A program made the translations under genes and the position numbers. The notes below the pieces were generated by a model. It was not told the DNA's origin. It ran no database searches and saw only the letters and a program-made list of their open reading frames with translations. Positions 6,254 to 25,544 of a stretch of DNA of 27,236 nucleotides are shown in pieces. Location of the stretch: the IMG/VR virus record IMGVR_UViG_3300024518_002761, positions 1 to 27,236 of that record; one strand, 5' to 3'. The DNA is from a virus. How positions within the stretch are numbered: the first letter of the stretch is position 1; each line of letters starts with the position of its first letter.

Positions 6254-6457
6254 CTACTTCCTCATTCTCTCTCGGATCTTCTTGGTGACCGACTTCGCCG
6301 CGCTCGATGGCTTGGGCTTCGAGGGTGGCTTCGATGGGGGCGCCACCTTCTCGCCAGACGGATAGATCCACGCCTTCATCGTGCCGTCCCCACACTTCAC
6401 CACGTCGTAGGCGTCGCCATCCTTCACGTCGCTCAGAAGACAGAGCTTGCGTTCCAT
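6254..6457 (-). CDS. Small protein with a Pro/Lys/Ser linker and basic end (67 aa)
   Basis: A 67-residue protein starting ATG 6457 (MERKLCLLSDVKDGDAYDVV) with a one-base overlap. Residues 1-37 look folded (VVKCGDGTMKAWIYPSGE). Residues 38-52 are Pro/Lys/Ser-rich (PPSKPPSKPKPSS), and the end is basic (KSVTKKIRERMRK). No hydrophobic segment, so it is not a holin. The spacing of the next gene is zero (TAG then ATG) and its ribosome-binding site GAGGAAG lies inside this gene. In other podoviruses a small needle or plug gene can be near here, but this protein is too short and lacks a coiled coil to claim that. Function unknown. Confidence 0.6.
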   Translation of the reverse strand: MERKLCLLSDVKDGDAYDVVKCGDGTMKAWIYPSGEKVAPPSKPPSKPKPSSAAKSVTKKIRERMRK

Positions 6458-8496: not shown

Positions 8497-9513
8497 TCAG
8501 CTTCCGTCGTAGGCGCGCGAGTAGAAGGCCCGGTTCGTCTGGGGCTGGAACAGAACCGCCGCGTTCTGCGCAACGTCGCTCTTTTGCTCGGCCGACACGA
8601 TCTTGTTGTACTCGGCCAGCTCGAACTGGGCGTCGTCGATCGTCTTCTTGATGTAGCGGTAGACGTAGTAGCGACCCCGGAAAAGGAGAGCCTGCTCGTA
8701 CTCCGGGGGGTAGCCCGACACGTCCACGTCGAGCTGCATGATCGACGGAGAGCCCTCGTAGCGGAAGTGGTAGTGGTAGACGTCATCGGGGATCGGGTCG
8801 AACTCCAGCACGTAGCGGGGCTCTCCGTCCTCGATCTGCACCGAGAAGATGTGAAACACCTGGGGCTTGTCGAAGATGCGAGTACCACGCGCGACGTCGA
8901 ACACGCGCGAGTCGTACTCCTCGGTCCGCAGATACTCCAGCGAGCCCATGCCGAAGAAGTCGTTCAGCGAGATCGGGCGCTTGAAGTTCACCGGCAAGAG
9001 GTAGCGGTCCTGGCCAATGAACGCTTGCTTCCCCTCACCGTCCGTGGCTGACGTGTCCGTCGTGCCCCGATAGACCGCCTTGTTCCCCGCCATGTCCGCG
9101 AGCGTGACCGTGCCCGGGCTCGCCGAGGCGACCGAGTGCACCCGATACCACTGGGAGTCCCCGGTCACATGGAAGAGGCGCCCCGGCCAGTCCGTGTTCG
9201 TGGTGAGATTCGCGGTCGCCGTGCCTGTCACATCGTTCGAGCCGTTCGTGAGCTGGAGCGAGCTGTCGCCGATCGTGTCCGCATCCTCGTCGGGGAACGA
9301 GTCCGAGATCTTCTCCTCGTTGATCGTGGTGATGCTCCCGTTGAAGAACAGCGGGGCTTGCGGCACGTCGCGCGAGAGATCCTTCTGGGCGTCCCGCACG
9401 AAGTCCACGATCAACTGCTCGTCGGAGTCCGGGTCCAGGTTCTCCACCGTGGCAATCTTCTTGCCAGCCCCCGTCGTGGAGATGATGTTGTTCACGATGG
9501 CCAGGAAGTTCAT
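8497..9513 (-). CDS. Tail adaptor / head-tail connector protein (338 aa)
   Basis: It starts ATG 9513 (MNFLAIVNNIISTTGAGKKI) in an ATGA overlap; an upstream extension is a shadow of the previous gene. Residues 25-50 and the C-terminal helices (EYEQALLFRGRYYVYRYIKK, DDAQFELAEYNKIVSAEQ) form the helical bundle typical of adaptors that sit under the portal (P22 gp4 / T7 gp11 type). In between are beta-rich insertions (residues 80-240), longer than in the short members of the group, with strands such as WYRVHSVASASPGTVTLAD. Position right before the large nozzle-type gene is the same as in P22 and T7. The assignment to the adaptor class is inferred from context plus the helical pattern. Confidence 0.72.
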   Translation of the reverse strand: MNFLAIVNNIISTTGAGKKIATVENLDPDSDEQLIVDFVRDAQKDLSRDVPQAPLFFNGSITTINEEKISDSFPDEDADTIGDSSLQLTNGSNDVTGTATANLTTNTDWPGRLFHVTGDSQWYRVHSVASASPGTVTLADMAGNKAVYRGTTDTSATDGEGKQAFIGQDRYLLPVNFKRPISLNDFFGMGSLEYLRTEEYDSRVFDVARGTRIFDKPQVFHIFSVQIEDGEPRYVLEFDPIPDDVYHYHFRYEGSPSIMQLDVDVSGYPPEYEQALLFRGRYYVYRYIKKTIDDAQFELAEYNKIVSAEQKSDVAQNAAVLFQPQTNRAFYSRAYDGS

Positions 9514-10517
9514 ACCGTCACGGTCTCCTTGGCAGGCTGCGTTGCGGCCTCGATCTCTTCGAGCGAGTCCGGTTCGGTCTTCTCGTCGAGGTTCACGTAA
9601 CCGTCGGAGATCTCGCGAGCGTCCTTCATGCTCGGCATCTGCTTCGGCGCGTGATACACACGCTGGTTCTGGATGTCGAAGTGGTGGCACTGGATCGAGC
9701 CGTCCACCGTCACCCGGTAGCCCGTTTCTTTCCGCATGTTGCGGCAGAAGCGAATGTCATGACCAACGATCCCCTGCCACGTCCCCTCTTCGTCCGCTGA
9801 CCGTTCGTCATTCCACCACGGGCGCTCCATGCGCCGAAGCACATCGGCGCGCACCATGAGACAGCCCGCTCCTGCCGCGTAGATGTCCTCGGGTATCGAG
9901 TCCTGGCTCTGGTTGAACCCCCAGTACGCGCCCTCGCCCGAGTCCTTGTAGATGATCGGCTCGGTCGGAACCACCTTCGTGTAGTACACGCCGGAGATGA
10001 TCCCGATGTCCGGGAATCGGTTCATGAAGTTCAGCATCCGATACCAGGCGTTGTGAGGAATGAGCACATCGTCGTCCCAGTAGAAGATGTACGAAACACC
10101 TCGCTCAAGCGCCTGCTCGGTCATTTGTTCACGAAGACGAGCCGACAAGTCGTTCTTCATCGTGAACCACGAGAGCGTTATGTTGAGAGGCTGCATCACC
10201 TGCTGGGCGTTTATCATGAGTTCGATAGGGACCAGGCCCGGCTGCCGGTAATGTCCGACCACCTTCTTCTCGTTGTCCTCGTCAACCGACACGATCATCT
10301 CGTCCTTGTCACCGATCGGCATGACGATACCCAGATGCGGGGCGCTGGACTGGTTCTTGATGATCCCCCGCCCCTCGCTGATATACGACATGGCCGGAGT
10401 GCTGACGCCCTCGACCGCTGTCCGATGGAAAGGCTCACCGCCGAAGACTCTACGGCCGGACTCCGAAGTCACCGCGTCCGCCGTCGCCTCTTCCCTGCCA
10501 TTGAGCTTTTCACTCAT
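9510..10517 (-). CDS. GT-A fold glycosyltransferase (335 aa)
   Basis: The start is the ATG at 10517 (MSEKLNGREEATADAVTSES), just after GGAGG and GAGGA; the frame upstream is out-of-frame reading of the preceding gene. After about 60 disordered residues, HLGIVMPIGD starts a GT-A domain. Residues 143-151 (YIFYWDDDV) give the metal-binding DxD (148-150). GAGCLMVR (216-223) is the acceptor-side loop, and GHDIRFCRN (252-260) carries the usual catalytic Asp position, followed by Cys-His-His near 277-279. It differs from the other glycosyltransferase in length and in keeping a full DDD. No membrane segment, so cytoplasmic. Being between the decoration-type proteins and the tail adaptor, it may modify virion proteins; host or prophage-sugar targets cannot be excluded. 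ATGA overlap with the next gene. Confidence 0.84.
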   Translation of the reverse strand: MSEKLNGREEATADAVTSESGRRVFGGEPFHRTAVEGVSTPAMSYISEGRGIIKNQSSAPHLGIVMPIGDKDEMIVSVDEDNEKKVVGHYRQPGLVPIELMINAQQVMQPLNITLSWFTMKNDLSARLREQMTEQALERGVSYIFYWDDDVLIPHNAWYRMLNFMNRFPDIGIISGVYYTKVVPTEPIIYKDSGEGAYWGFNQSQDSIPEDIYAAGAGCLMVRADVLRRMERPWWNDERSADEEGTWQGIVGHDIRFCRNMRKETGYRVTVDGSIQCHHFDIQNQRVYHAPKQMPSMKDAREISDGYVNLDEKTEPDSLEEIEAATQPAKETVTV

Positions 10518-10534
10518 TCCTCGTGTACCTCCCT

Positions 10535-11425
10535 TTATGCGCTGGTCTCGCTCCAGCACCACGACTCGTGGATGGAAAGCGTGTCGATGCCACCGGCAGC
10601 GGCACTCTGCATGGCGATACACCACGACATGGGCTCGTAGTCGTTCGACGCTGGCGTGACGTTCACGTAGGGCAAGATGCCCGACTGAGCCGCCTCGCTC
10701 GTGTTGGTGAGGTTGTTCGCCCACCACGTAACCGAGTCGTCGCCGTTGATGCGAAACGCCAGCTCCATCACGTCGTCATCGACGATGGCACTGTCCATCG
10801 TAATGCTGGCGGTGTCCACCGATGCGTCTTGCCGAGCCGTGATCGAGATGGTGTCCGTCTCGGTCGCCACCGTGCTGAAGTAAACGCCGTCGATGGTGGC
10901 CAGGATCAGGCCATCGTCGCTCGCTGCGAAGGGGCTCTTGATCGTGGTGTAGGCGCCCATGTTCGCGAAGCCCGCGAACCATTGGGTCACGTTCCGGTCT
11001 GACCAGGAGAACTTCGCGTAGAACACCGCGTCCTTGTCCGTGTCCGGCCGGAAGATCGGGTGAGTCATCGCCACGCACTCTGCGGTGGCGGTGGTCTCGT
11101 AGGCCATGTCCATCGTCAGGCCATCGGTGGAGATCGTCGTCGCGCCCGACGCCAGGCCACTCTGGCCCAAAGAGATCATGACGCCACTCGTGCTCGATCC
11201 GTCCGTGGTCGCCGCCGTCGCCGTGGCGAGCTTCCAGTCCTGGCGCTCCAGTCGAAACGAGCGAAGGTTCCGGAGCGACTCCAGGCACGCGACCGGCGCG
11301 TCAGCACAGATGTTCGCGAAGGTGCGATCCCCCTTGTGCCGTGCGTCCTGAAACGCATCGGAGCTGGTGAGCGCGGGGCCGGTTGCATGGGTGGCCCCCA
11401 CCAGAAGTTTTTCAGATGCTGCCAT
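10535..11425 (-). CDS. Beta-rich structural protein, paralogue 2 (296 aa)
   Basis: The 296-residue product starts ATG 11425 (MAASEKLLVGATHATGPALT) ten bases after the previous stop, with GGGGTGA upstream. It aligns by eye with its neighbour over most of the length: FYAKFSWSDRNVTQWFAGFA, IDGVYFSTVATETDTISITA, ITMDSAIVDDDVMELAF, SVTWWANNLTN, NDYEPMSWCIAMQSAAAGG. The end (SIHESWCWSETSA) and the N-terminus differ. Early Cys residues (ICADAPVACLES) have no partner in paralogue 1. A duplication followed by divergence is clear; both probably coat the head. It is followed by a short gap with two purine-rich ribosome-binding sites for the glycosyltransferase gene, which suggests the three genes are expressed together. 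Confidence 0.66.
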   Translation of the reverse strand: MAASEKLLVGATHATGPALTSSDAFQDARHKGDRTFANICADAPVACLESLRNLRSFRLERQDWKLATATAATTDGSSTSGVMISLGQSGLASGATTISTDGLTMDMAYETTATAECVAMTHPIFRPDTDKDAVFYAKFSWSDRNVTQWFAGFANMGAYTTIKSPFAASDDGLILATIDGVYFSTVATETDTISITARQDASVDTASITMDSAIVDDDVMELAFRINGDDSVTWWANNLTNTSEAAQSGILPYVNVTPASNDYEPMSWCIAMQSAAAGGIDTLSIHESWCWSETSA

Positions 11426-11435
11426 GGGTCACCCC

Positions 11436-12269
11436 TTATCCGCTCCAGGCGGTCATTTTGGTGAAGTGAACTGCTCCTGCGGCAGCGGAAGAGGCTTGCA
11501 GCGCGAGTCCCATTTGCATGGCCTCGTAGTCGTTCCCGCCGCCGCCCACGTTCGCGCAGTTGAGAGTGCCGCTTGAGATGGTCTCGGCCTCGACCTGAAT
11601 CACCCAGTCCACCGAGCCGAGGCTCGCGGTGAAGGCGAGCGTCAGCTCGTCGCCGGAGGTGTCGTCGGCACTCGCGGTCGAGAGCGTGACCGTATCCGTA
11701 TCGGTCACAGCGTCCTGCGTAGCCGTGATGTTGATCGACGCGCCCGCCGTGGTCGAGAGGTAGTGGAAGAAGATCCCGTCGACGGCCGCACTGATCGCCT
11801 CGGTGGACGCCGTGTACGGCGAGCCGGATGTTCCGCCACCCCAGAGCCCGGTGATGAATCCGTTCTCCGAAATGTCGCTGTTGCTGACCTTCGCGTAGAA
11901 ACCGCAGTCCTTGGCGGACGTGCAGGAGAAGGTTTTGACAGTGTTCATGCACGCTTCGTCGTTGTCGGCTGCGCCATGAGCGAGAGACATCACACCAGTT
12001 GTGGCGGCGATGAGCGTCGCGGGCACACCGGCTTCGTTGCCGATCTGGTACAAGAGACCGCCAGCCGCAGTCAGGTCGGCGGCCACGACAACCTGGAAGT
12101 TGGTGGTGTCAACCGCGAACGACTCGTATCCGGTGTGCCCGGTGTCGTTCTGTATCCATTCGGTAGGGGCACCACCGAGGGCGTTGAGGATAACGTCGTT
12201 GCGGGTGTTGTGGGATTGAAGGGACGCGCCCCGGTAGTGACGCGCGTCGCGTCTTTTGACGGTAGGCAT
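11436..12269 (-). CDS. Beta-rich structural protein, paralogue 1 (277 aa)
   Basis: It starts at ATG 12269 (MPTVKRRDARHYRGASLQSH), with AAAGGAG upstream, 30 bases after the capsid-gene terminator. The 277-residue protein is Ala/Thr/Gly/Ser-rich and beta-prone. Pairs of strands such as VDGIFFHYLSTTAGASINIT and DSVTWV-like GSVDWVIQVEAE are visible, and it ends NDYEAMQMGLALQASSAA then a short acidic strand. The same order of features (CxxxxxxFxC, FYAKxSxSD, FxxG, VDGxxFxxxST, DTxTxxxxxA, SVxWxxxxE, NDYExMxxxxAxQxSxAAG) recurs in the next gene, so they are paralogues with a lectin-like beta-sandwich look. Cys residues (MNTVKTFSCTSAKDCGFYAK) could be structural. Placed directly after the coat gene, it is probably a capsid decoration or head-fibre protein. 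Confidence 0.66.
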   Translation of the reverse strand: MPTVKRRDARHYRGASLQSHNTRNDVILNALGGAPTEWIQNDTGHTGYESFAVDTTNFQVVVAADLTAAGGLLYQIGNEAGVPATLIAATTGVMSLAHGAADNDEACMNTVKTFSCTSAKDCGFYAKVSNSDISENGFITGLWGGGTSGSPYTASTEAISAAVDGIFFHYLSTTAGASINITATQDAVTDTDTVTLSTASADDTSGDELTLAFTASLGSVDWVIQVEAETISSGTLNCANVGGGGNDYEAMQMGLALQASSAAAGAVHFTKMTAWSG

Positions 12270-12336: not shown

Positions 12337-13260
12337 TCAGGACGAGCCGGAGGATCCGTAGGTTCCGATCCAGTCGATACAACCACCGCTGAAGCGCATC
12401 GAACCTTTCCGCTTGGCTGCGCCGGTGTCGAAGTCGACGTCGGCTCCAAGCGTGATGTCGCGCCGCATGAACCCCTTGAGGCCATGGGTTCCCTTGTCCG
12501 CAATCATGAACCACGAGTTCGGGTCCGTGATGTACGGGCTCCACTTCCACGTCAGACCCGTCGCGAACGGCGTGGTCTGGATGGCGTTGATCGTGTTCTC
12601 CGTGGAGTAGGGGACCTGCGGTGTCTTGAGGATTTCGTCCGCCTGGAACGTCAGGGCCGATGGCACCCAGAGCGTCGCCGCCTGAGTCATCACCGGGATA
12701 CCACGATGGTTCGTGGTGTCTCCGAACGTGGTCAGAGCCGTCTCGACATTCGCGGGCGACAGATCCGCCGCCGCATAGTTCGAGACCGAGCCGCCGCCGA
12801 CATAGGCGTGAGTCGCGTTGAAGATGGACGAACCATCCCACGCGGTCTCGGTGCCGATGTTCGACAGGCCGTTGTTGAGGATGTTGAAGTAGAAGGTCTC
12901 CTTGGTGGCAAGCGTCGAGCGAGCCATCGCACGGGCGACCTGGGAGAAGATGTTGTCCTGGTCGTCCTCGACGACCTCTTCCGACATCTCCACAAGCATC
13001 GTGTGCTTGACGTGAGTGAACGCCTTGTCGTAGCCCGCGAGGAAGTTGTCCGCGTGATACGCCTCGTTCTCCGTGGTCTCCTGCATCAAGCCGAGTCCCA
13101 CGACCTGCGAGAACTGTTCCCTCATCTTGCTGGACGGATTGAAGTCGAAGATCATCGAGTGCAGCTCGGGGTAGTCTCGATAATTCTCGAAGAACACCGT
13201 GTCCATGTACGGAAGCCTCGAAAAGAATAGATCTTCGAAGCCTGTGCGAAGCATAGGCAT
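12337..13260 (-). CDS. Major capsid protein, HK97-fold (307 aa)
   Basis: The coat subunit that builds the icosahedral head. It starts at ATG 13260 (MPMLRTGFEDLFFSRLPYMD) with a strong AAAGGAG site upstream (13267-13273). At 307 residues it is normal for HK97-fold coats. Characteristic features are the helical EEVVEDDQDNIF-ARAMARS segment, the FNATHAYVGGGSVSNYA stretch, ANVETALTTFGDTTNHRGIP, VMTQAATLWVPSALTFQADE and the long beta/helix pattern leading to the C-terminus. The arrangement is most like Mu-type gpT major head subunits by eye. No N-terminal scaffold/protease domain is visible, which agrees with a separate scaffold gene. A hairpin terminator follows its stop, which would give the coat gene the highest upstream expression of the block. 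Confidence 0.87.
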   Translation of the reverse strand: MPMLRTGFEDLFFSRLPYMDTVFFENYRDYPELHSMIFDFNPSSKMREQFSQVVGLGLMQETTENEAYHADNFLAGYDKAFTHVKHTMLVEMSEEVVEDDQDNIFSQVARAMARSTLATKETFYFNILNNGLSNIGTETAWDGSSIFNATHAYVGGGSVSNYAAADLSPANVETALTTFGDTTNHRGIPVMTQAATLWVPSALTFQADEILKTPQVPYSTENTINAIQTTPFATGLTWKWSPYITDPNSWFMIADKGTHGLKGFMRRDITLGADVDFDTGAAKRKGSMRFSGGCIDWIGTYGSSGSS

Positions 13261-15312: not shown

Positions 15313-15690
15313 TCAACTGCCACGGTTGGCTTGTTCACGAGCCCCAGTTCCGCCAGGTCGTTGAGACTCAGAAAGCGGTTGGACGGCGGGGACGTGGGTA
15401 GCTCGTGTCGCGGGGGCCGGATTCTCGTAGCCCGTTTCTGTTGGGTCTTTCGCGTCCGGTGAGCCATCGTATTCCTTCCCGTACTCGGATTGGGCTGACG
15501 GATCCGGTTCGATCATGCTCTTCGGAAGCTCGTCGCGAACCCACACGAGAGTCTTGATCTCGGCCTTCAGGGCCTTCATTCTGTCCAGGTCGTCGTCGCA
15601 CTGGATGAGCTGGTGAACCTTGTTCTCGATCGTCTCGGTCAGCGCGGCGCGGTACTTCGTGTAAAGCTCGCCCCGGAAGAACTCCTTCAC
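15313..15690 (-). CDS. Hypothetical protein, helical N-terminus and disordered acidic tail (125 aa)
   Basis: It starts at GTG within a GTGA overlap (MKEFFRGELYTKYRAALTET). Residues 1-60 are helical and amphipathic, rich in Glu and Lys, and could form a coiled coil (IENKVHQLIQCDDDLDRMKA). Residues 60-125 are Pro/Ser/Gly/Asp-rich and look unstructured. No family is recognised. It is placed directly before the probable scaffold gene, which has a similar mix of helix and disordered acidic sequence, so an assembly cofactor or capsid-internal protein is plausible. The stop is followed by 21 bases carrying GAGGAAT before the next GTG. Confidence 0.55.
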   Translation of the reverse strand: MKEFFRGELYTKYRAALTETIENKVHQLIQCDDDLDRMKALKAEIKTLVWVRDELPKSMIEPDPSAQSEYGKEYDGSPDAKDPTETGYENPAPATRATHVPAVQPLSESQRPGGTGAREQANRGS

Positions 15691-16040
15691 TGTGCCACGA
15701 ACCAGTCGACCGTGGCGGTGACGCTCCGTGTCTGGACGACCGTGAAGCTCGTCACCGACTTGTTATCCCAGATCTTCATGACCCCCAGCCCGTCGAGGTT
15801 GACCTTCTGAGAATCGGCCATCGTCACTGTGCACGACACCGACGAGTCAATCATCAAGATGACGGCTGACCCGATGCGATCGAACGTCACCGTCTGCATG
15901 GTCCCCGACGGCAGGAGGATCGCGCCCGAGTTGAACTCGGTCACGCTCGTCCCGATGTCGAGAACGAACTCGATCACCTTCGTGCCCGCGTTCGTGCCCT
16001 CGACCGATCCCTGGATGTCGACCTTGTTGATCGCGCTCAT
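15687..16040 (-). CDS. Small beta-rich protein with the triplicated domain, copy C (117 aa)
   Basis: The 117-residue product begins MSAINKVDIQGSVEGTNAGT at an ATG in an ATGA overlap; the longer frame upstream belongs to copy B read out of frame. It is a full-length paralogue of copy A, one residue shorter: the N-terminal 34 residues share the xxVxGxVxGxxxG layout. Residues 35-117 hold SCTVTMADSQKVNLDGLG, WDNK and VQTRSVTATVDW. Closest by eye to copy B in the C-terminal part (SSVSCTVT, NKSV, TATxxWxxAQ), so B and C may be the more recent duplication. Role as for copy A: probable virion surface or connector protein. A GTGA overlap leads into the next gene. Confidence 0.66.
   Translation of the reverse strand: MSAINKVDIQGSVEGTNAGTKVIEFVLDIGTSVTEFNSGAILLPSGTMQTVTFDRIGSAVILMIDSSVSCTVTMADSQKVNLDGLGVMKIWDNKSVTSFTVVQTRSVTATVDWFVAQ
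15690..15938 (-). repeat. Repeat domain copy C (83 codons)
   Basis: Third copy of the shared coding segment, in the downstream stand-alone gene. Marks: SCTVTMADSQKVNLDGLG, WDNK, VQTRSVTATVDW. Confidence 0.85.
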
Positions 16041-17443
16041 TGGGCCGCGATCCAGTTGATCGTTGCGGTCACGCCGCGCGTCTGTACCACCGAGAAGCTC
16101 GACACGCTCTTGTTCCTCCAGATGTGCAGGAGTGCTAGACCATCGACGTTTACCTTCTGAGAATCGGAGAGAGTCACCGTGCATGAGACCGACGACTCGA
16201 CGATCACCATGCGCGCACTCGTGATATTAGCGAACTGCACGACTTCTGTGGCCGCGCTCGGGAGCTGGAAGGATCCGGAGAACCACCGCTTGATCTTCCG
16301 GCGCGAGCGCATCTCGTCGCGGAACACCTGCTTGGCACCCGCGAATCCGAGGATCGCGCCACTCACGCCCATCTCTTCGAGGATGTTCACCGGGGACCGC
16401 TGGGGCGTGCCTTCGAGGGGCTTCTGGCCATCGGGGGGGTGGGGCGGCCCGGAGTCCTCCCGGCCCTCGGGCGCCTCCCCGCCAGTACCTCCGATCGGGG
16501 TGTTGAACGGTTCGAGCGCACCCAGGAGCCCCAGTGTCGACGAGGCGACGGACACTCCGGTGTTGTAGTCGGGGGCGAGATCCAGGCCACCCGCGCACGT
16601 GTCGTCGAGGAAGAGCGGGTCGGTCGTGGCGTCGCCCGTCCCGGCCACGTAGTCTTCGTCCACGCCGTCGATCACGCGCCAGTTGTACGAGCCCGTCACC
16701 GTGCCCGAGGCGGCCTCCTCGGCCATGTTCACGGCCCCCGCCCCGTCGTTGGCGCCCTCGATGAGGCAGTCCGTGGCCGTGATGACAGAGGTGCCAGACG
16801 CGAAGAAGACCTTGAGCGTGTGGGCCGAGGTGTACTCGATGTAGACCGTGCACCGCGAGAACGTCATCGACACGGTGGATCCCGCGCGAAGGAGATCGTC
16901 CGCTGACGTCTGGTCCCCGGAGCACTTCTGGAACTGGCACCGGGTGAACGTCCACGTGTTCGCTGTCCCGACCGTGGAAACGATGGTCGACTCGGACTGG
17001 TGGCGGAAGAGGCAGTCGGTGCAGGTCACGGTGTGTCCCACGTCGTCCGTGGTGGCGTTCACGATGCCGTTCACGCCGTATTCCACGACCGTGTGGAGCA
17101 TCGTGACGGTCACCGGGTTCGCCGCGTCTCCCTGGCGAATGTCGATGTGCTGCCAGTCTCCAGAGCCCGGAGACGCCTGGCTGGAGGTGAGCACGACCTT
17201 GCTCGATTGCCCACCGGTGCACGCCAGGGTGCCGCCCGCGCCGCCGAACCCGACCCGGATCATGCTCCCGGTGTCCTGGAACTTCACGGTCACGCCCGCC
17301 TCGATCGTGAGCGAGAAGCCACCGTTCGCCTGCACGATCGTCGTGCCGTTGATCGTGATGACCCCGCCCACGCCCACGCCCACCGAGGCGTCGGTGGTGT
17401 CCTTGGCGTCCGTCGTCGCTGTCGTCCAGGTCTGGGAGGCCAT
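16037..17443 (-). CDS. Beta-helix protein fused to the triplicated domain, copy B (468 aa)
   Basis: The start is the ATG at 17443 (MASQTWTTATTDAKDTTDAS), overlapping the previous stop by one base; the open frame upstream is an out-of-frame reading of copy A. Residues 20-310 show the recurring short strands and turns of a right-handed parallel beta-helix (repeated TCTDCLF, TRCQFQKC, SRCTVYIE, ATDCLIEG steps), with a Cys in many steps. Residues 320-385 are a Pro/Gly-rich linker (PPHPPDGQKPLEGTPQ) followed by a short helical stretch. Residues 386-468 are the same domain as copies A and C. So the shared module probably anchors the protein to the particle while the helix projects. Beta-helices in phages are often tailspikes, but this one sits between portal and scaffold, far from the spike genes, so a head-attached spike or fibre is the inference. 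The stop overlaps the next ATG (ATGA). Confidence 0.75.
   Translation of the reverse strand: MASQTWTTATTDAKDTTDASVGVGVGGVITINGTTIVQANGGFSLTIEAGVTVKFQDTGSMIRVGFGGAGGTLACTGGQSSKVVLTSSQASPGSGDWQHIDIRQGDAANPVTVTMLHTVVEYGVNGIVNATTDDVGHTVTCTDCLFRHQSESTIVSTVGTANTWTFTRCQFQKCSGDQTSADDLLRAGSTVSMTFSRCTVYIEYTSAHTLKVFFASGTSVITATDCLIEGANDGAGAVNMAEEAASGTVTGSYNWRVIDGVDEDYVAGTGDATTDPLFLDDTCAGGLDLAPDYNTGVSVASSTLGLLGALEPFNTPIGGTGGEAPEGREDSGPPHPPDGQKPLEGTPQRSPVNILEEMGVSGAILGFAGAKQVFRDEMRSRRKIKRWFSGSFQLPSAATEVVQFANITSARMVIVESSVSCTVTLSDSQKVNVDGLALLHIWRNKSVSSFSVVQTRGVTATINWIAAQ
16040..16288 (-). repeat. Repeat domain copy B (83 codons)
   Basis: C-terminal 83 residues of the beta-helix protein. They carry SCTVTLSDSQKVNVDGLALL, WRNK and VQTRGVTATINW, closely matching copies A and C at protein level and clearly at DNA level in the central stretch. 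Confidence 0.85.
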
Positions 17444-17799
17444 TACGACACCGCGATCCAGTTGACGGTCACCGCCGCGCCGCGCGTCTGCACGATCGAG
17501 AAGGCCACCACGTCCTTGTTCGTCCACACCCTGAGCATCGCCAGGCCGTCGACGTTCACCTTCTGCGAGTCGGCCATGGTGACCGTGCAGGAGGCCGAGG
17601 TCTCGATGATGACCATCTTCGCGTCGGTGATCGTGTTGAAGTCCACCGTCGAGGACGACCCCGAGGGCAGCGAGAGCGAGCCGGAGTGCCACTCGGTCAT
17701 CGTCGAGAGGTTCTGCGACATCACCTTGGTGAGCACGCGGAGCCCCGAGTCCTCACCGGACACATAGCCTTTGACCCGCGCACGGGTGATCGGTGGCAT
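17443..17799 (-). CDS. Small beta-rich protein with the triplicated domain, copy A (118 aa)
   Basis: A 118-residue protein starting ATG at 17799 (MPPITRARVKGYVSGED) just after the portal stop, with GGAGGG/TAGG upstream. Residues 36-118 are the domain shared with the two following genes: a hydrophobic lead strand (EWHSGSLSLPSGSS), then SCTVTMADSQKVNVDGLA, then a W-x-N-K turn and the strand pair SIVQTRGAAVTVNWIAVS. All of it is beta-prone. The order after the portal and before the scaffold, and the lack of catalytic residues, point to a head surface or portal-proximal structural protein. It is a full-length paralogue of the 117-residue protein at 15687-16040. It ends in a TAATG overlap with the next gene. 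Confidence 0.66.
   Translation of the reverse strand: MPPITRARVKGYVSGEDSGLRVLTKVMSQNLSTMTEWHSGSLSLPSGSSSTVDFNTITDAKMVIIETSASCTVTMADSQKVNVDGLAMLRVWTNKDVVAFSIVQTRGAAVTVNWIAVS
17446..17694 (-). repeat. Repeat domain copy A (83 codons)
   Basis: First copy of a duplicated coding segment. Shared marks are SCTVTMADSQKVNVDGLA, a W followed by NK, and VQTRG close to the end. DNA identity is visible around CTTCTGCGAGTCGG on the plus strand (CTTCTGAGAATCGG in the other copies). Confidence 0.8.
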
Positions 17800-17801
17800 T
17801 C

Positions 17802-20159
17802 CTACCCTCCGGTGAACGTGCTACCGAGGCCCTCGGCCGCCACCTCGGAGAGTCCTGCCTGACCGCCGAGATCAGGATTAAAAAGTCCCTCTTCTCCTCT
17901 AAAATTCCCTTGATTGCCTTGTCGCGCGTTTCGACGTTGCCCGGATTGCTGGGCCTGCTGGTTCTCCACGACGCGCTGCATCTCCAGGTGAGCCTGCTTG
18001 TGCGGAGCCCACACCCCGGTGACCCATTCGGTAGGCACGGAGCCGAAGTCCTCGGACTGCTCGAAGGCGTCCATCTCCAGGACGTGCTGCTCGTGGTTGT
18101 CCGGGAGGATGGGCCGGATCGGGATGCCCTGGATCATCGCCTTGGTCTCCTCGTCCTGCGTCATCGGCGCGCGGTCGAAGCCCTGCGGGTCGGGAATGAT
18201 CGACTCGGGGTTCGGCATGTCGAGCATCTCGGCGAAGCGGCGCGCGAGGATCCGCGCTCCCGGGGAGATCGCCTCGGGCGGCTGCTGCGCGATCGGCATG
18301 AGCGCCTCCAGCGCGGTCGCCGCGTACTGGCGCTTGATCTCCTTGTTGTTCGACACCGAGTCGAGTTCCCAGAAGAAGTCGTACTTCATGTTCAGGTCGT
18401 CCTTGCGGATCGAGCGCATGCCGTTCTTGCCGGTGATGCGGAACTCCTCGGACTCGGGCGCGTTCATTCGCAGGAGATTGAGCGTCTTCTCCGAGAGTTC
18501 GTGGAGCGCGGGTGACAGTCGCAGGAGCAAGTAGTCCAGCTTGATCGCGTCCTGCTGGAGGATGGCGAGTGTTCCCCGAGCCGTTCGCGGAGCATTGGGA
18601 CGGTCCGGTCCTCGTCCCATAGTCTGCGTAGAAATCGAGAGATCCTCCGATAGAGCCAGGAGGAACTGCTCCACGTGAATCGCATCGCGCGTGTTCGCGA
18701 CCGGGACGTACTCGCGCACGTCCGCTTGCGGGTTGTCGACCGGCAGCCACATGCCCGGAGACCACGACATGGGGCCTGGGTCGAATCCTGATCCCGGACG
18801 ATAGAAACCTCCCGGTGAGACCGACATCGTGGCCGCGTCGTTACGCGAATTGAAAGTGGAGTTGAGTTCGACGAGGAGCGGGAAGAGCGCCTCGCCGATG
18901 CCGATGTGGAGAAGTCTGTTTCCAATCGGGATGAGCCCCGAGTGAACCATCGGGCGCTCGTGCATGTGGTAGTCGACGAACTGGTGCTCGATGCGCAGCA
19001 CCTTGCGAGTACGACCCTCGTACCATATCACCACGTCCTCGTCTTCGCCGTCGTGGTCGAGGTCGATCCTGCGGAACTCCTCGATCACCTCGAACGGGTA
19101 GCGGCGCGTCGTGATGTTGCCCTCGGTCGCATCCTGCTGTCGCTTGAGTCGCTCGCCCACGACTTGGTTCAATGGCGTGAGTCCGAGGTTCTCCAGCTCC
19201 GCGTCGCCAGTCACCTCGTCGACGTCGGCGATCAGCTCCATCTCATCCATGTCGGCCTGCGTGATCTGGTTCCACTTGCCGGTGCGGAAGCCGCGCACCA
19301 TGTCGTCCCACGACTTCTCGTAGCGCACCGACACGCGCTTGGCTTCCTGGATGGACCGCCCGTCAACCGTGAATACGCAGTCAGGAATCTCGATGTTGTC
19401 GAACTGGGGCTGGTTGATGACCGTCTCGCGCGACTCCATCAAGAAGATGTTCTCTCGCGATTCCTCGTGCGAGTAGCCCTCGATCTGGATTTCCTTCTCG
19501 CGCCTGTCGACCTCATCCCACACCGTGATCGACCACTTCGTCCCCTTCGAGCCCTTGCCGATGCGCTTGAGATCCTTCACGACCTCCATCATTCCGAAGA
19601 AGTCGATGATCTGTCCGTCGAGGGGGACCTTGCGACGCTCAGGCGGTGCCTCGGGGTCCTCGCCCGGGATGTCCTGGAACATCGGCTCGCGCTCGATACG
19701 GCGCTGCATGCGCTCAACGCGGCGCCACCAGAGCTTTCCGATGCCGTTGCCGTAGAGGATGAAGTTCCGCACGTACCGTTCGAGCTGGTCGAGGATGCGC
19801 ATGCGGTTGCGCCAGTAGTATTGGATGTAGTCGGTCGTGTCCTCGGCCTTCTTCTCCGCGAGAGGATGCGAGGAGACCGGCTGGGCGCTCATGTTCGAGA
19901 ACGCGCCATTGGGCGCGATTGACTGCATCACGTGAATCGTCATGCGGTCGGTCGCGCGGGTGATGAGCGGCACCGAGGTGTTCGAACAGCCCTTCCACGG
20001 GAACACCTTCTCTTTCACCCGGTTTCGATAGGCGTTGTAGATCTTCACGAGACGCTCGTCGAATGCACCGCGAGCCCCGCGATCGAGGAAGTTGTCGTCT
20101 TCGAAGAGACGGAACAGCTCCTCGTTCCTTTTCTTGTCGATCGGGAATGTCGAAGGCAT
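17802..20159 (-). CDS. Portal protein (785 aa)
   Basis: The portal is the dodecameric ring at the special capsid vertex through which DNA enters and leaves. The protein is 785 residues, in the range of large P22-type portals. A TTG one codon earlier is possible, but the ATG at 20159, overlapping the terminase stop by one base with GGTGGA upstream, is preferred. The N-terminal third (FPWKGCSNTSVPLITRATD near residues 55-73, then RNFILYGNGIGKLWWRR) matches the clip/wing part of podovirus portals. The middle has the long conserved stem-like region around HIGIGEALFPLLVELNSTFN and the following helices. The last 55 residues are Gln/Asn/Gly-rich and probably disordered. Gene order (terminase, portal, later scaffold and capsid) supports the call strongly. 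The stop (TAG) is followed by a GGAGGG site for the next gene. Confidence 0.93.
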   Translation of the reverse strand: MPSTFPIDKKRNEELFRLFEDDNFLDRGARGAFDERLVKIYNAYRNRVKEKVFPWKGCSNTSVPLITRATDRMTIHVMQSIAPNGAFSNMSAQPVSSHPLAEKKAEDTTDYIQYYWRNRMRILDQLERYVRNFILYGNGIGKLWWRRVERMQRRIEREPMFQDIPGEDPEAPPERRKVPLDGQIIDFFGMMEVVKDLKRIGKGSKGTKWSITVWDEVDRREKEIQIEGYSHEESRENIFLMESRETVINQPQFDNIEIPDCVFTVDGRSIQEAKRVSVRYEKSWDDMVRGFRTGKWNQITQADMDEMELIADVDEVTGDAELENLGLTPLNQVVGERLKRQQDATEGNITTRRYPFEVIEEFRRIDLDHDGEDEDVVIWYEGRTRKVLRIEHQFVDYHMHERPMVHSGLIPIGNRLLHIGIGEALFPLLVELNSTFNSRNDAATMSVSPGGFYRPGSGFDPGPMSWSPGMWLPVDNPQADVREYVPVANTRDAIHVEQFLLALSEDLSISTQTMGRGPDRPNAPRTARGTLAILQQDAIKLDYLLLRLSPALHELSEKTLNLLRMNAPESEEFRITGKNGMRSIRKDDLNMKYDFFWELDSVSNNKEIKRQYAATALEALMPIAQQPPEAISPGARILARRFAEMLDMPNPESIIPDPQGFDRAPMTQDEETKAMIQGIPIRPILPDNHEQHVLEMDAFEQSEDFGSVPTEWVTGVWAPHKQAHLEMQRVVENQQAQQSGQRRNARQGNQGNFRGEEGLFNPDLGGQAGLSEVAAEGLGSTFTGG

Positions 20160-21718
20160 CAATATCCACCCGTCGCTTCAGTGGCCTGCGGTTGTGCCCT
20201 GTTGTTGTAGGGCTCGGCGAAATGAACGGTCCGCGCGTTCCTGGTGTCGTTTTCATCCATGGAAGGACGATACGTGCGGTAGCCAGTCTTGAGTGCGCGG
20301 TAGTTCGGCTTCTGGGACACGAGATAGAGAACGCCGTCGATCAGGTCGTCGTCTTTCTTGTCTCGACCCTCGGGGTATTCCTTGACCTGATTGCCCCGGC
20401 TCCTCGCGCTGCCACGCAGCTCCGGGTGCACGTAACGCTTGATCTCCCAGATCAGGCGCTCGCAGCTCTTGAACATCACGATTCCAGGCTGCTTCCACTC
20501 CTCGTCGAGCTTGAACATCTCGGCGGTGGCCATGAGCCTCGCGCGCTTGTCGGCCTTCGGTGCTGCCGTGCACGCGATCCCCGCCTTGCGGAAGAGATCC
20601 ATCATCGACTCGCCGCTCACGTCGCGCACGTTGAACGAGGAGTCCATGAGCGACATGGCGACCTTGTGGTTGCGCGCCTTCTCGATCGCGCCCATGCGCT
20701 CGGCGAGTTGCTTGAGGTTCTGGATGGAGGCGTCGAAGAGAACGTCGGTTATGATGAGTCGGTTGGTAGGTGAGACCTTCGCCCAGACGACGGCGTGGGG
20801 CTTTCCGAGGTGGGGGTCGATGGCTCGGATGCTTGGCCACTCCCGGGGAATATCCCACTCTTCGGTGACCCATGGCTCTTTGACGGCGAAGTGCTTGAAG
20901 ATCCGGCCCTGAAGGTGCTGGGGTTTGCCGTGAAGTCGCACCTCCTTCTGGACGTCATCAAGCGTTTTCTCAAACCGCTGAATCGCTGCTTCGTCCAGAG
21001 CGCCAGTGACCGTACCATCAGCATTCTCCGTTCTGAGATTGTCCCGGATGTCACCCGTAATCGCGAAGTAGTCGGGGTCGCCCGCTTCCGCCCGTTCCCA
21101 AATCTCATCCCAGATCCAGCCCTCCGAGAGAAGTGTCAGTGTCATCCAGATCTTGCCGCCATCGACAATCACGCCACGGGTGATCGGCGCCCAGAACGAG
21201 TACGGTGGCGGTTCGTCGAAGTCATAGAAGTGCTTGTCCGCGCCCTCCATGCGATCCGGGTCCATCTCGTAGGTGCCATAGCGGATCTCGGATCCATTCG
21301 TGAACTCCCAGCCGACGGTTCGCCCGTGGCGCCGGATCTCTTTCGCCACGCCACGCGGGAGCCACTTCTCGAAGTGAGGCGTCACCACCTCGTCGGCCTT
21401 ATCCCAGGTCTCGCAGAAGCACATGCCCTTGACGGGCGGCTCGTAGGGCGTCTTGAAGAGCGGGTGATTCTTGGGGAGAAACGGCCGGTAGCCGAGGCAG
21501 TAGGAGATGTCCTCGATCTTGCCCCACGTGGTCTTCCCGACCTTGTTGCCACCGAAGAGCGTTCGGTACGTCGCGTTCGATCCGGTCATCCGGAGCTGCG
21601 GGACGTTCGGCCGGAAGAAGAGAAGCGGGTTCTCTTTCTTGTACTCTTCGAGCGCGTCGAGGTCCGCCTGGAGAGCGAGCAGTTCCTCGGCCGAGGGGAT
21701 CAGTTCGTCGGGACTCAT
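20159..21718 (-). CDS. terL: Terminase large subunit (519 aa)
   Basis: This is the motor ATPase and nuclease that pumps phage DNA into the prohead and cuts the concatemer. The start is the ATG at 21718 (MSPDELIPSAEE), in an ATGA overlap; the longer open frame upstream reads through the preceding gene out of frame. Residues 56-63 (GGNKVGKT) are the Walker A loop. Residues 164-170 (FYDFDEP) form Walker B with the catalytic Asp-Glu. The C-terminal half is an RNase H-like nuclease: acidic residues at D301 (AIDPHLGK), D359 (SLMDSSFN) and 457-459 (DDD of KKDDDLIDG) fit its metal site. Length is normal for the family and nothing is broken. It works with the portal encoded next, whose ATG shares one base with its TGA. 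Packaging mode (headful or cos) cannot be read from this. Confidence 0.95.
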   Translation of the reverse strand: MSPDELIPSAEELLALQADLDALEEYKKENPLLFFRPNVPQLRMTGSNATYRTLFGGNKVGKTTWGKIEDISYCLGYRPFLPKNHPLFKTPYEPPVKGMCFCETWDKADEVVTPHFEKWLPRGVAKEIRRHGRTVGWEFTNGSEIRYGTYEMDPDRMEGADKHFYDFDEPPPYSFWAPITRGVIVDGGKIWMTLTLLSEGWIWDEIWERAEAGDPDYFAITGDIRDNLRTENADGTVTGALDEAAIQRFEKTLDDVQKEVRLHGKPQHLQGRIFKHFAVKEPWVTEEWDIPREWPSIRAIDPHLGKPHAVVWAKVSPTNRLIITDVLFDASIQNLKQLAERMGAIEKARNHKVAMSLMDSSFNVRDVSGESMMDLFRKAGIACTAAPKADKRARLMATAEMFKLDEEWKQPGIVMFKSCERLIWEIKRYVHPELRGSARSRGNQVKEYPEGRDKKDDDLIDGVLYLVSQKPNYRALKTGYRTYRPSMDENDTRNARTVHFAEPYNNRAQPQATEATGGY

Positions 21719-22143
21719 GGCATCAACTGCCCGTGGAGGATGACCGTGCACCGCTCGGTGTTCGTCGTGGCATCGTCGATGTAGAGCATGAGGTCGCCGG
21801 TGGGGTTCGTTCCCGCCATGAGGAGCCCCCCGAACAGATAGTCGGAGAAGTCCAGGTCCGCCGCGTTGTTCGAGGGGATCACGATCACGCGAACGTCGGT
21901 GCCCGCGTCCCACCGCAAGGTCCAGATTGCTGTGGAGTCAACGCCGTTTTGCCCAGTAATGATAGCTCGCAGGATCTTCCATTGCGTGAAGGTCCGACCG
22001 TCGATCACGGGGTCGAGGTCCACGTCGTAGTCGAGCAGCTTGTCGCTGGTGTCGCCGGTGACGCCATCGGTCTCGGCCGTGGCCTGGAGCCAGAAGTGGT
22101 ACTTGTTCTGCACGATCTGGCTGACCGTCGTGATCGTTGCCAT
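21715..22143 (-). CDS. Small beta-rich protein, family copy 4 (142 aa)
   Basis: A 142-residue protein starting ATG, beginning MATITTVSQIVQNKYHFWLQ. It is the clearest counterpart of copy 1: both start MATI, both have W-T-L-[RK]-[WF]-D-A (here WTLRWDAGTDVRVIVIP), then LDFSDYLFGG, then GDLMLYIDD, a late Cys and the ending HGQLMP (copy 1: CGELIP). The fold is probably a compact beta-sandwich. It is translationally coupled to the terminase by an ATGA overlap, which makes it the gene occupying the place where a small terminase is often found. Its sequence has no DNA-binding look, so I do not call it a small terminase. Confidence 0.65.
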   Translation of the reverse strand: MATITTVSQIVQNKYHFWLQATAETDGVTGDTSDKLLDYDVDLDPVIDGRTFTQWKILRAIITGQNGVDSTAIWTLRWDAGTDVRVIVIPSNNAADLDFSDYLFGGLLMAGTNPTGDLMLYIDDATTNTERCTVILHGQLMP

Positions 22144-22145
22144 GT

Positions 22146-22153
22146 CCCCCCCC
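22146..22153 (-). promoter_or_regulatory. G8 tract acting as ribosome-binding site
   Basis: On the minus strand eight consecutive G lie between the TAG stop of the upstream gene and the ATG at 22143, giving TAGGGGGGGGACATG. The tract is the only Shine-Dalgarno-like sequence there. It is unusual compared with the GGAGG-type sites elsewhere in the window. Confidence 0.45.
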
Positions 22154-22677
22154 TACGTCGGGAACGTCGTTCTCCCATCCTGTACGACAAGATCCATGTC
22201 GATGAACACGGAGCAGATGTCGCCGGTCGTGATTGCGTCCTGGGGGGGCTCATACTGTAAGTGGACTTTCTCATTCGTGGAGTCCGGGGTTCCGATGACC
22301 ATGACCCCGCCGTCCGGATGTTCGGTGAGATCAACCGCCGCGCCGCCATTGAGCGGGATGCTCAGGACGGCCACCCCCGACAAGAAGCCTGGCCCGGAAA
22401 AGCCTCCGAGGCTGATCGACCAGCTCCCGAAATTGTCTTTGACCGAGGTGTCTCCGGGCGAGGCGGTCAGTGCCGCGCGCAGCACCTTGATCCTCGTGTA
22501 GACCTTCTTCGGGCCATACGGGGTCTGGTCGACCGTGAGCCCGGAACTGGGTGTCGGATCCAGCGGGTCGATGAGAATCTTGCGAACGACCTGCGTGCCC
22601 GTGTGTTGCCACGTGCCCTCGTAGAACAGGCGGCTCCCGACCTGATACAGGCGCTCGGTACGCTTCGTCAAGCTCAC
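22153..22677 (-). CDS. Small beta-rich protein, family copy 3 (174 aa)
   Basis: The start is the GTG at 22677, inside a GTGA junction; the longer in-frame extension upstream is an out-of-frame reading of copy 2. The 174-residue protein begins MSLTKRTERLYQVGSRLFYE. It is the longest and most divergent member. Recognisable are a VYTRIKVLRAAL lead, WSISLGGFSGPG, LNGGAAVDLTEHPDGG, then NEKVHLQYEPP and the C-terminal VFIDMDLVVQDG. The Gly/Pro-rich loop after the central strand is expanded. It ends at a TAG whose last G opens the G-rich tract used as ribosome-binding site by the next gene. Function is unknown beyond a probable structural role. Confidence 0.62.
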   Translation of the reverse strand: MSLTKRTERLYQVGSRLFYEGTWQHTGTQVVRKILIDPLDPTPSSGLTVDQTPYGPKKVYTRIKVLRAALTASPGDTSVKDNFGSWSISLGGFSGPGFLSGVAVLSIPLNGGAAVDLTEHPDGGVMVIGTPDSTNEKVHLQYEPPQDAITTGDICSVFIDMDLVVQDGRTTFPT

Positions 22678-23123
22678 GGCTTGTCCTCGACGAGTTCGAG
22701 GTCCATGGCGACCATGCAATGATCTCGAAGGCCACCGGAGTTGTAGTACTGGAGCATCAAGTCGCCCTCGCGCGTCTGGGTGCCGAACGTGATGCGCTTC
22801 AAGCCCGCCTCGGGGAAGTCGGTGAAGTCGAGCGAGATCGAGCCGTCGAGCGGCACCGAGGCGACCGGGATGGGCTTCCCGTCCACGAGCGGATCGAAGT
22901 AGACGACCCAACCGCCATCGGTGAGCTGCTCGGCCGTTGACGCCGCCGTCATCCGGATCCGCCTGACCCGGAGCTTCGTGAACGTGGGGAATTGGCTCGC
23001 GAAGAACGTCGTGGGGAAGATGATCCGCGTCGCGTCGGCCGCCGTGTTCGTGCGCCCGACGAACAACTGGTACACGTTCTTCCCGTGGTTGTTCCCCACC
23101 CCCGTGAGCTGCACGATCGACAT
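22674..23123 (-). CDS. Small beta-rich protein, family copy 2 (149 aa)
   Basis: The 149-residue product begins MSIVQLTGVGNNHGKNVYQL at an ATG sharing one base with the previous stop (TAATG). An in-frame ATG eight codons upstream is rejected because it lies in the preceding gene. The family pattern is visible: a helix-strand lead (KLRVRRIRMTAAST), WVVYFDPL in the middle, SISLDFTDFPEAG, then EGDLMLQYYNSGG and the end MVAMDLELVEDKP. It differs from copies 1 and 4 by a longer loop after the central strand (LVDGKPIPVASVP). No enzymatic residues stand out. It is joined to the next gene by a GTGA overlap. Likely a virion surface component. Confidence 0.62.
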   Translation of the reverse strand: MSIVQLTGVGNNHGKNVYQLFVGRTNTAADATRIIFPTTFFASQFPTFTKLRVRRIRMTAASTAEQLTDGGWVVYFDPLVDGKPIPVASVPLDGSISLDFTDFPEAGLKRITFGTQTREGDLMLQYYNSGGLRDHCMVAMDLELVEDKP

Positions 23124-23560
23124 TACGGTATCAGCTCTCCACACATGACGAGTCCCATCACGTCCAGCGCGACCCCGGTCCCGCCGTAGTCGATCGTGAT
23201 GTCTCCGGTGTAGTTCGTTCCCCGTGGGTCTGGAATTCCGCCCATCGGCAGTAGCGTGAAGTCGTAATACTGCGACGCTCGTGCTGGAAGCTCGGTAATT
23301 ACGACCGGGGTATCCGCATCAAACTTCAGTGTCCAGACGCCCGGGGCGCCGATGTTCGCCCCTGTGGCCCACATGTGCGTGAGCTTGAGCGCCGAATACG
23401 TGACGTTGTTGATGACCACACCCGGAGACGTCACGAAGTCCGAGAAGTTGACGACGATCGCGTCTGTCGCCGCGTTCCCGTCGTCGCTGTGGACCTTCCC
23501 GTGGAGCATCCACTTGCGACCGTAGAGATTCTTCGTCAGTGCGGTGAGGATCGTTGCCAC
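23123..23560 (-). CDS. Small beta-rich protein, family copy 1 (145 aa)
   Basis: A 145-residue protein starting GTG with a one-base TAGTG overlap to the glycosyltransferase. It begins MATILTALTKNLYGRKW and contains the pattern WTLKFDADTPVVI, then an acidic-aromatic strand (YYDFTLLPMGG), then GDITIDYGG, and it ends LVMCGELIP. The same order (W-x-hydrophobic-x-hydrophobic-D, D-F, GG, GD plus beta strand, Cys, L-P end) is found in the protein at 21715-22143 and, more loosely, in the two between them. This suggests a beta-sandwich fold expanded by tandem duplication. There is no catalytic motif. It probably decorates the virion; the duplication and operon position support this, but no family name can be given. 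Confidence 0.62.
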   Translation of the reverse strand: MATILTALTKNLYGRKWMLHGKVHSDDGNAATDAIVVNFSDFVTSPGVVINNVTYSALKLTHMWATGANIGAPGVWTLKFDADTPVVITELPARASQYYDFTLLPMGGIPDPRGTNYTGDITIDYGGTGVALDVMGLVMCGELIP

Positions 23561-24408
23561 TACGCCTTCTCCTTTTCAGCCTTAAAATCCGCGTCTTCGC
23601 CAAGGCGCGGCGGGAGCGTTTCGAGCGACATGCCCATGCGCCCCTCTCTCCACGACTCGCACGATACGTCCTTGAAATGGTACACGAGGGCGTCGTCCAT
23701 GATGTATGCGACCCGCCCGCACGCGCGCATGCGCTCCTGGTACTCGTCCTCGCCCTCGTAGTTCAGCTTCGACGGGTCGAAGAGATGGTCGTCGTCGAAC
23801 TGCACCGCGCGATCCATCTTGATGCAGAAGCAGAAGCCGTTGACGAAGCTCACCATCCCACCATTCCCCGTTGGGCTCCTGTCCCGGGCATGGGAAAGGA
23901 ATGCCGTCGGGCGGTTGATCGGGATCCTCTGGTGCTCCTGGTGGCCAGGTTGGTTCGTCATAGGGCCAGAGATGCCGCAGTCCTCGGAGTCGAACGCCTT
24001 CACGAGCGACTGCCACCACCCGGGCGTGAAGATCACGTCGTTGTTCGACAGGATCAGGTAGTCGTGCCCGGCCTTTTTCGCGTCTCGCCATGCGTCGTTC
24101 CACCTGGCCACCACTCCCGGGCTGTCGGGTTCGGCCATGTGCGCACCGATCCTCGCGTCTCGTTCCAGCGGAGCGACGATCTTCTCGCGCCATGCACTGA
24201 ACTCCTTCGAGCCGTCATCGAGTATCAGGATCTCCCCGAGGAAGCCCGTCCTCATCGCCGTATCCAAGGCCAGCTTCGTGTAGACCAGATGATCCTTTTG
24301 AGTGATCGCCAACAGGATCGAGCGGGGATCCAATGGTTGCCGCTCGGTGCTCTCGCCATTGCTTGTCGGCGATTCTTCGATGAGTGAGTGGTCTGCGGAA
24401 CTTTTCAT
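23560..24408 (-). CDS. GT-A family glycosyltransferase (GT2-like, 282 aa)
   Basis: A 282-residue protein beginning MKSSADHSLIEESPTSNGES. Residues 30-62 form the first Rossmann-type strand-helix-strand, followed by LDDGS at 63-67, the nucleotide-sugar-binding signature of family 2 glycosyltransferases. Residues 119-126 (ILSNNDVI) hold an NND in place of the usual metal-binding DxD. NGFCFCIK (190-197) and the acidic pair ED (220-221) match the acceptor-side loop and the usual catalytic-base position, and His244 sits where family members often have a metal or nucleotide ligand. No membrane segments are seen, so it should act in the cytoplasm. The ATG is chosen because the first conserved strand needs it; this places the start 194 bases inside the preceding gene. 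It ends in a TAGTG overlap with the next gene. Sugar donor and acceptor are unknown; virion proteins or cell-wall sugars are both possible. Confidence 0.83.
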   Translation of the reverse strand: MKSSADHSLIEESPTSNGESTERQPLDPRSILLAITQKDHLVYTKLALDTAMRTGFLGEILILDDGSKEFSAWREKIVAPLERDARIGAHMAEPDSPGVVARWNDAWRDAKKAGHDYLILSNNDVIFTPGWWQSLVKAFDSEDCGISGPMTNQPGHQEHQRIPINRPTAFLSHARDRSPTGNGGMVSFVNGFCFCIKMDRAVQFDDDHLFDPSKLNYEGEDEYQERMRACGRVAYIMDDALVYHFKDVSCESWREGRMGMSLETLPPRLGEDADFKAEKEKA

Positions 24409-25122: not shown

Positions 25123-25544
25123 GTGTCCATCTCCAGTCCGACGAGGCAAAGCATGTCGGGGCCGACCGTGGCCGTTGCAGCCGACACCGTGATGACCAAA
25201 GACAGAAAGTCTCCCTCGACGAATCGGTCGACGTCGACGCCCTGCTTTGCGTTGAAGTAAACGACCGTTCCCACGTCACCCACAACGATCGTCGGAGAAG
25301 TCGCCGTAAAAACGTTGGAGTTACCAATCCGAGCGTGCATCTGGAAGGTGTCGTCATTGCTGTGACCGGAGATGGCGCAAGAGCAGGAAAGCATGACGAT
25401 GGAGCCGGTATCCCACATTCCCCACCCGAACGTAGAAGTAAAAGGAACCTGCTGCCCCGGCCTCAGAAAGACCGTTCCGGACGATACGTTCACATTGTGG
25501 AAAGCGTGCAGTACCAACGGCGGGTGATTGCTCTTTCGCGTCAC
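25119..25544 (-). CDS. Small beta-rich structural protein (141 aa)
   Basis: I chose the GTG at 25544 because it overlaps the upstream TAG stop by one base and has GGAGGG seven bases upstream. A GTG five codons earlier (25559) is also open. The 141-residue product begins MTRKSNHPPLVL and is almost wholly beta-prone, with Val/Thr/Ser-rich stretches, a Cys pair (SCSC) near the middle and a C-terminus ending LCLVGLEMDT. It lacks a recognisable catalytic motif. Size, beta content and the final hydrophobic-acidic strand resemble the four small proteins encoded at 21715-23560, though I cannot align it convincingly along its length. A fibre-associated or capsid-surface protein is the likeliest role. 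The junction with the next gene is an ATGA overlap. Confidence 0.6.
   Translation of the reverse strand: MTRKSNHPPLVLHAFHNVNVSSGTVFLRPGQQVPFTSTFGWGMWDTGSIVMLSCSCAISGHSNDDTFQMHARIGNSNVFTATSPTIVVGDVGTVVYFNAKQGVDVDRFVEGDFLSLVITVSAATATVGPDMLCLVGLEMDT

Follow-up and report, generated by a model that had tools for sequence, protein, structure and literature searches.

A C-terminal beta-rich domain shared by two free proteins and one probable beta-helix protein in the head-gene region of a phage

Three adjacent genes of the analysed virus record (27,236 bases; the window) end in the same domain. Two of them, P1 and P3, encode small stand-alone proteins. In the third, P2, the domain follows a long N-terminal extension that is probably a beta-helix. 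Our preferred explanation, to which we give a probability of about 0.4, is that an accessory protein of the particle surface has undergone a lineage-specific expansion. The domain would act both as a free base and as the C-terminal anchor of a spike, and the two forms would share a site in the manner of the tectivirus proteins P31 and P5.

Results

Three coupled genes encode one C-terminal domain

P1, P2, and P3 have 118, 468, and 117 amino acids. They lie on the minus strand, as do the structural genes of the window.

17443..17799, minus strand: P1, stand-alone protein of 118 aa; common domain at 17446-17691; GGAGG before the start
16037..17443, minus strand: P2, fusion protein of 468 aa; start overlaps the P1 stop (TAATG)
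16040..16285, minus strand: residues 387-468 of P2, common C-terminal domain by alignment; predicted strands at the P1 positions with an offset of 350
15687..16040, minus strand: P3, stand-alone protein of 117 aa; common domain at 15690-15935; start overlaps the P2 stop (ATGA)

The last 82 residues of the three proteins can be aligned without a gap. Over this length the identity is 61% between P1 and P2, 57% between P2 and P3, and 50% between P1 and P3. All three copies agree in 35 of the 82 columns, including SCTVT..DSQKV..DG, W.NK.V, and VQTR....T..W. With P1 as the query against the window, the other two copies were retrieved at E = 9e-34 and 2e-31. These values exclude chance similarity. 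The first-pass annotation had described a domain of 83 residues at the end of these genes, free in two proteins and C-terminal in the third. The open reading frames and the domain were recovered as described, one residue shorter.

As DNA, the copies are only 63-66% identical, so they are not a duplicate or artefact of assembly. The dN/dS values between copies are approximately 0.34-0.48 (NG86), and all three therefore look to be under selective constraint. The overlapping stop and start codons couple the genes, and one more (GTGA) joins P3 to the next gene, which encodes a small helical protein. A clear Shine-Dalgarno sequence is present only before P1 (the GGAGG). An internal start at the in-frame GTG at 16390, which would give a free C-terminal form of P2, was considered; no Shine-Dalgarno sequence is visible upstream of it.

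Genomic neighbourhood

The module lies among head genes, with the portal on one side and the scaffold-like and capsid genes on the other.

20159-21913, minus strand: open reading frame of the terminase; the protein probably begins near 21715
17802..20162, minus strand: SU10-type portal protein, upstream neighbour (PF23899, E = 1.1e-20; phrog_1216)
15313..15690, minus strand: small helical protein of 125 aa, coupled to P3
14464..15291, minus strand: scaffold-like coiled-coil protein, downstream neighbour, assigned by position and composition
Between the scaffold-like gene and the capsid gene, minus strand: two further small proteins
12337-13260, minus strand: Mu gpT-type capsid protein, by family matches
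6457-8493, minus strand: tail-side protein (virion structural family phrog_3287; 'phage stabilization protein' in a relative)

The helical gene separates P3 from the scaffold-like gene, which corrects the first-pass annotation. In both the window and its close relative (see below) it is the next gene after the module. In several distant relatives the portal is followed directly by a small helical gene or by a gene for a GroES-like co-chaperonin. Many distant relatives have the GroES-like gene in or near this slot. In one of them (L149) it occupies 5468-5728, exactly between the portal and the small helical gene, and in others (L005-L011 and L013-L017) it also lies between portal and scaffold. 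The portal-scaffold slot of the window and of the close relative contains no GroES gene. It had been proposed that the location favours a site on the head or at the portal vertex. The portal and scaffold-like neighbours agree with this proposal, but the argument is a weak one, because the corresponding region of more distant relatives includes non-virion genes (GroES, a coiled-coil scaffold).

Searches for homologues

We searched annotated phages by tblastn with P1, the C-terminal domain of P2, P3, the relative's copy, and the whole of P2. No homologue was found, the one match (E = 6) being due to chance. P2 had no homologue among plasmids. Patterns derived from P1 and from the three-copy profile retrieved no homologue from IMG/VR, and the domain was not found in GTDB genomes. 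The first-pass annotation had proposed a profile search against viral proteins. Against PHROGs, Pfam, NCBIfam, and PDB sequences the domain gave no match above chance, and no known family of head fibres or decoration proteins was hit; in IMG/VR, one syntenic homologue was obtained from a close relative of the window. The family is thus undescribed in the libraries searched.

This relative was recovered with a terminase-derived pattern. Patterns from the portal, and from terminase and portal alignments, had no match in IMG/VR, probably due to the patterns chosen.

A close relative has a single free copy

The one close relative found, IMGVR_UViG_3300009506_000142 (29,121 bases), shares almost its entire gene order with the window. 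Identity is 66% for the terminase, 73% for the capsid protein, 57% for the portal, 46% for the scaffold-like protein, and 46% over 59 residues for the helical protein. The domain occurs in it exactly once (E = 9.7e-30), as a stand-alone protein of 117 aa between the portal and the helical gene. The best window match of this copy is P3 (47%). The first 35 residues of P1, P3, and the relative's copy are also alike, more weakly than the domain (24-50%). The same stretch of P2 has just 11-17% identity to the other three.

At the DNA level the window copies are 63-66% identical to one another and 54-56% identical to the relative's copy, a closeness to which shared base composition could add. This difference suggests that the duplication took place after the two lineages split. 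A history in which copies were lost in the relative, rather than gained in the lineage of the window, is also compatible with these values. With the search tool that detected the relative's copy, no domain was found in more distant relatives, in which a terminase, portal, or capsid gene can still be recognised. From these comparisons, the module is an accessory gene of this small lineage that probably grew from one copy to three, one of which was lengthened.

As no spike accompanies the domain in the relative, the simplest history starts from the plain protein, to whose N-terminus the spike was joined later. Under this history the plain protein would probably be ancestral, and the lineage of the window would have gained two copies, one of them fused behind a probable beta-helix. 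The domain would then hold the original binding partner and would carry P2. The domain had already been proposed as the anchor of P2. The syntenic free copy supports an older free form and a placement of P2 by the domain, not by the beta-helix.

Predicted fold of the domain

The AlphaFold model of P1 (mean pLDDT 64) has a helix at residues 18-28 and eight strands within residues 37-117. That of P2 has an overall confidence of 51, with most of the C-terminal domain at about 70-80. It places a helix at residues 366-380, and its strands match the P1 positions. Both predictions were fed by the same three-sequence alignment and are not independent. With modest confidence, free P1 and the C-terminus of P2 are predicted to have the same strand order, a short helix followed by an eight-stranded jelly-roll-like fold. 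Different folds of the C-termini would, according to the first-pass annotation, speak against its reading; the two that were folded, P1 and the end of P2, agree.

Foldseek comparison of P1 with the PDB gave weak matches to cupins, Ena1C, and YomS. In the viral library most matches are uncharacterised small phage proteins. PRD1 P31 is among them at rank 14 (E = 1.6e-3, TM-score 0.44) and HCIV-1 VP9 at rank 26. The carbohydrate-binding module CBM36 is another of the weak fold matches, and no match of P1 exceeds a query TM-score of 0.58. The penton matches have a TM-score of about 0.45, and a generic jelly-roll would score likewise. The safe statement is that the models place the domain in the class of small jelly-rolls or double-stranded beta-helices.

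The N-terminal extension of P2

Before its domain, P2 can be divided into two segments.

16646..17359, minus strand: residues 29-266, strand-rich, probable right-handed beta-helix (weak DUF5123 match, low-confidence model with strands only, cysteine spacing)
16349..16645, minus strand: residues 267-365, linker with a Gly/Pro-rich middle part (low-confidence stretch; composition)

The match to Pfam DUF5123 (E = 3.4e-4) falls short of the family cut-off. AlphaFold predicts only strands in the N-terminal part, with low confidence, and pLDDT is below 50 over residues 259-366. Cysteines are found at residues 144, 169, 198, and 226, with spacings of 25, 29, and 28. A search for rung periodicity in P2 gave nothing significant (p = 0.19). 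The fusion described in the first-pass annotation is clear; its beta-helix is probable.

P2 has no recognisable N-terminal domain for anchoring to the particle. Among the open reading frames of the window and of the loci searched, it matched nothing outside the domain copies. Its beta-rich sequence starts already near residue 28, too early for an N-terminal anchor of the usual kind to fit before it. In this respect P2 is unlike the two other beta-helix proteins of the phage (PF13229; 2800-4908 and 4910-6253, minus strand). These are probable tailspikes with related N-termini: the protein at 2800-4908 is 29.7% identical over 138 residues (E = 8e-9) to the relative's counterpart of 4910-6253. 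Both are kept in the relative, and the second is better conserved (52% against 39%). An acetyltransferase-like gene (phrog_1249) lies at 2354-2800.

Other beta-rich clusters and sugar-related genes

Four tandem divergent beta-rich paralogues of about 140-175 aa occupy 21715-23560 on the minus strand (approximately 21715-22143, 22153-22677, 22674-23126, and 23123-23560). This array sits between a glycosyltransferase-like gene and the terminase, where the relative has two genes, and it gave no family match. Descent of the domain from this array was rejected after an hhalign comparison (probability 0.9%). Downstream of the capsid gene, at 10535-12269 on the minus strand, there are two adjacent paralogues of 296 and 277 aa, 32% identical, for which Pfam and PHROGs searches stayed at chance level. 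The relative has one. Three clusters, namely P1-P3, the array, and this pair, each of which could encode surface proteins, are thus larger in the lineage of the window than in the relative. For the array and the pair, this may reflect growth here or shrinkage in the relative.

The genes at 9510-10547 and 23560-24387 (minus strand) appear glycosyltransferase-like by eye, and the relative has counterparts of both (55% and 43%). A protein of 540 aa is encoded at 25544-27166 on the minus strand, far from the other tail genes. Its C-terminus matches the depolymerase C-terminal beta-sandwich PF25692 just above the cut-off.

Discussion

Proposed model

The starting state would be that of the relative, with one free protein of 117 residues, made of a short helix and a small jelly-roll-like domain, between portal and scaffold. 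In the lineage of the window, this gene would have become three coupled genes. One copy would have gained an N-terminal extension of about 350 residues, with a probable beta-helix and a flexible linker, and the beta domain would serve as the docking base on the particle. Through this domain the spike P2 would co-assemble with free P1 and P3. A ring, or several equivalent sites, would then carry plain bases together with some bases from which a beta-helix projects outward and serves in adsorption. The ratio would be fixed by coupled translation, as P1 alone has a clear ribosome-binding site. The first-pass annotation had likewise suggested that free copies and spike compete for, or share, one symmetric site, a reading that the data support in part. 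The location in the virion, the shared site, the mixed oligomers, and the role in adsorption are what we infer from these data.

The neighbourhood of portal, scaffold-like, and capsid genes supports this model. Other points count against it. HK97-type capsids form their own pentamers, which leaves no vacant penton site. The structure models are of modest confidence. In the precedents compared below the anchors are N-terminal, as far as the cited sources describe them, and here the anchor would be C-terminal.

Comparison with known systems

In the tectivirus vertex (PRD1/PR772), two copies of free P31 and three of P5, the latter through their P31-like base, make up a single heteropentamer (PMC6750898). 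As there, the window has a free jelly-roll-like protein of similar size (P31 has 126 aa) and a spike with a homologous copy as its base, free protein and spike base being 50-61% identical within one genome. The fold match to P31 is weak, and neither PDB sequences nor PHROGs yielded a profile match to P31 or P5. Tectiviruses are tailless and have an internal membrane, whereas the genes here include those for an HK97/Mu-type capsid protein, a portal, and a terminase. P5 consists of an N-terminal base, a collagen-like stem, and a knob, whereas P2 would have a C-terminal base and a probable beta-helix as its projection. Three neighbouring copies in the window, one of them with a predicted spike, against a single plain copy in the relative suggest a shared attachment site on the particle for plain and spiked versions, an arrangement proven in one unrelated phage group.

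Fibres with small base domains do stand on HK97-type heads. Examples are phi29 gp8.5 (PMC6542822) and phicrAss001 gp21 and gp29 (PMC10172136). Their bases are N-terminal, so the polarity of P2 would be reversed, and the passages considered describe no free base copy. The domain had no sequence match to these three proteins in PHROGs and PDB sequence searches. Nor did it match the sequences of the prophage proteins XepA and YomS, the latter being the weak Foldseek match of P1. Those two sit in different prophages, and what is added there is another beta-sandwich domain. XepA is reported to be absent from mature particles.

Alternative explanations

It is possible, if doubtful, that the three paralogues have become sub-functionalised. 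They would build separate homo-oligomers, each at another position of the particle, such as hexamer centres and the portal vertex, and plain and spiked versions would not mix. Divergence to 50-61% identity is enough for distinct partners, and the N-terminal 35 residues differ more than the domain. The two different head fibres of phicrAss001 occupy two different hexon pockets (PMC10172136). Against this reading, 35 of the 82 positions are still invariant in all copies. A different role for the domain, which we consider unlikely, is at the tip of P2. P2 would be tailspike-like, with the domain binding a receptor or capping the trimer, and the free copies would be soluble or separately mounted binders. 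Phage depolymerases often end in a beta-sandwich domain, one of this type is encoded in the window (25544-27166), and the CBM36 match fits such a role. Nevertheless, the relative's domain comes with no spike at all, so capping a beta-helix was not its original role. In addition, P2 is without a recognisable N-terminal anchor, unlike the two other beta-helix proteins with their related N-termini, and its gene lies among head genes, far from the tail genes.

The domain could also act in head assembly, as a substitute for a co-chaperonin or as a scaffold partner, and be absent from the mature particle. The GroES-like gene of many distant relatives, in the exact slot in L149, is the reason to consider this. 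Profile comparison with eight phage GroES proteins revealed no similarity (hhalign probability 0.1%), several relatives have neither gene in the slot, and an assembly factor would have no obvious use for a fusion to a long beta-helix. We regard this role as very unlikely.

Implications

Our model of a shared site can be put in a stronger and more tentative form. The phage would be an HK97-type tailed phage with a mosaic surface, where one symmetric site would be occupied both by free bases and by a beta-helix spike anchored at its C-terminus, and gene copy number and translational coupling set the density of spikes. It would be a counterpart, within the Caudoviricetes, of the P31/P5 vertex, recent enough for a relative with a single copy to persist.

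In the same slot, one genome has one free protein and the other has two free and one fused. The two genomes therefore catch one step of a plain phage protein perhaps becoming a spike. If the reading of a shared site is true, the density of spikes would be tunable by the dosage of paralogues.
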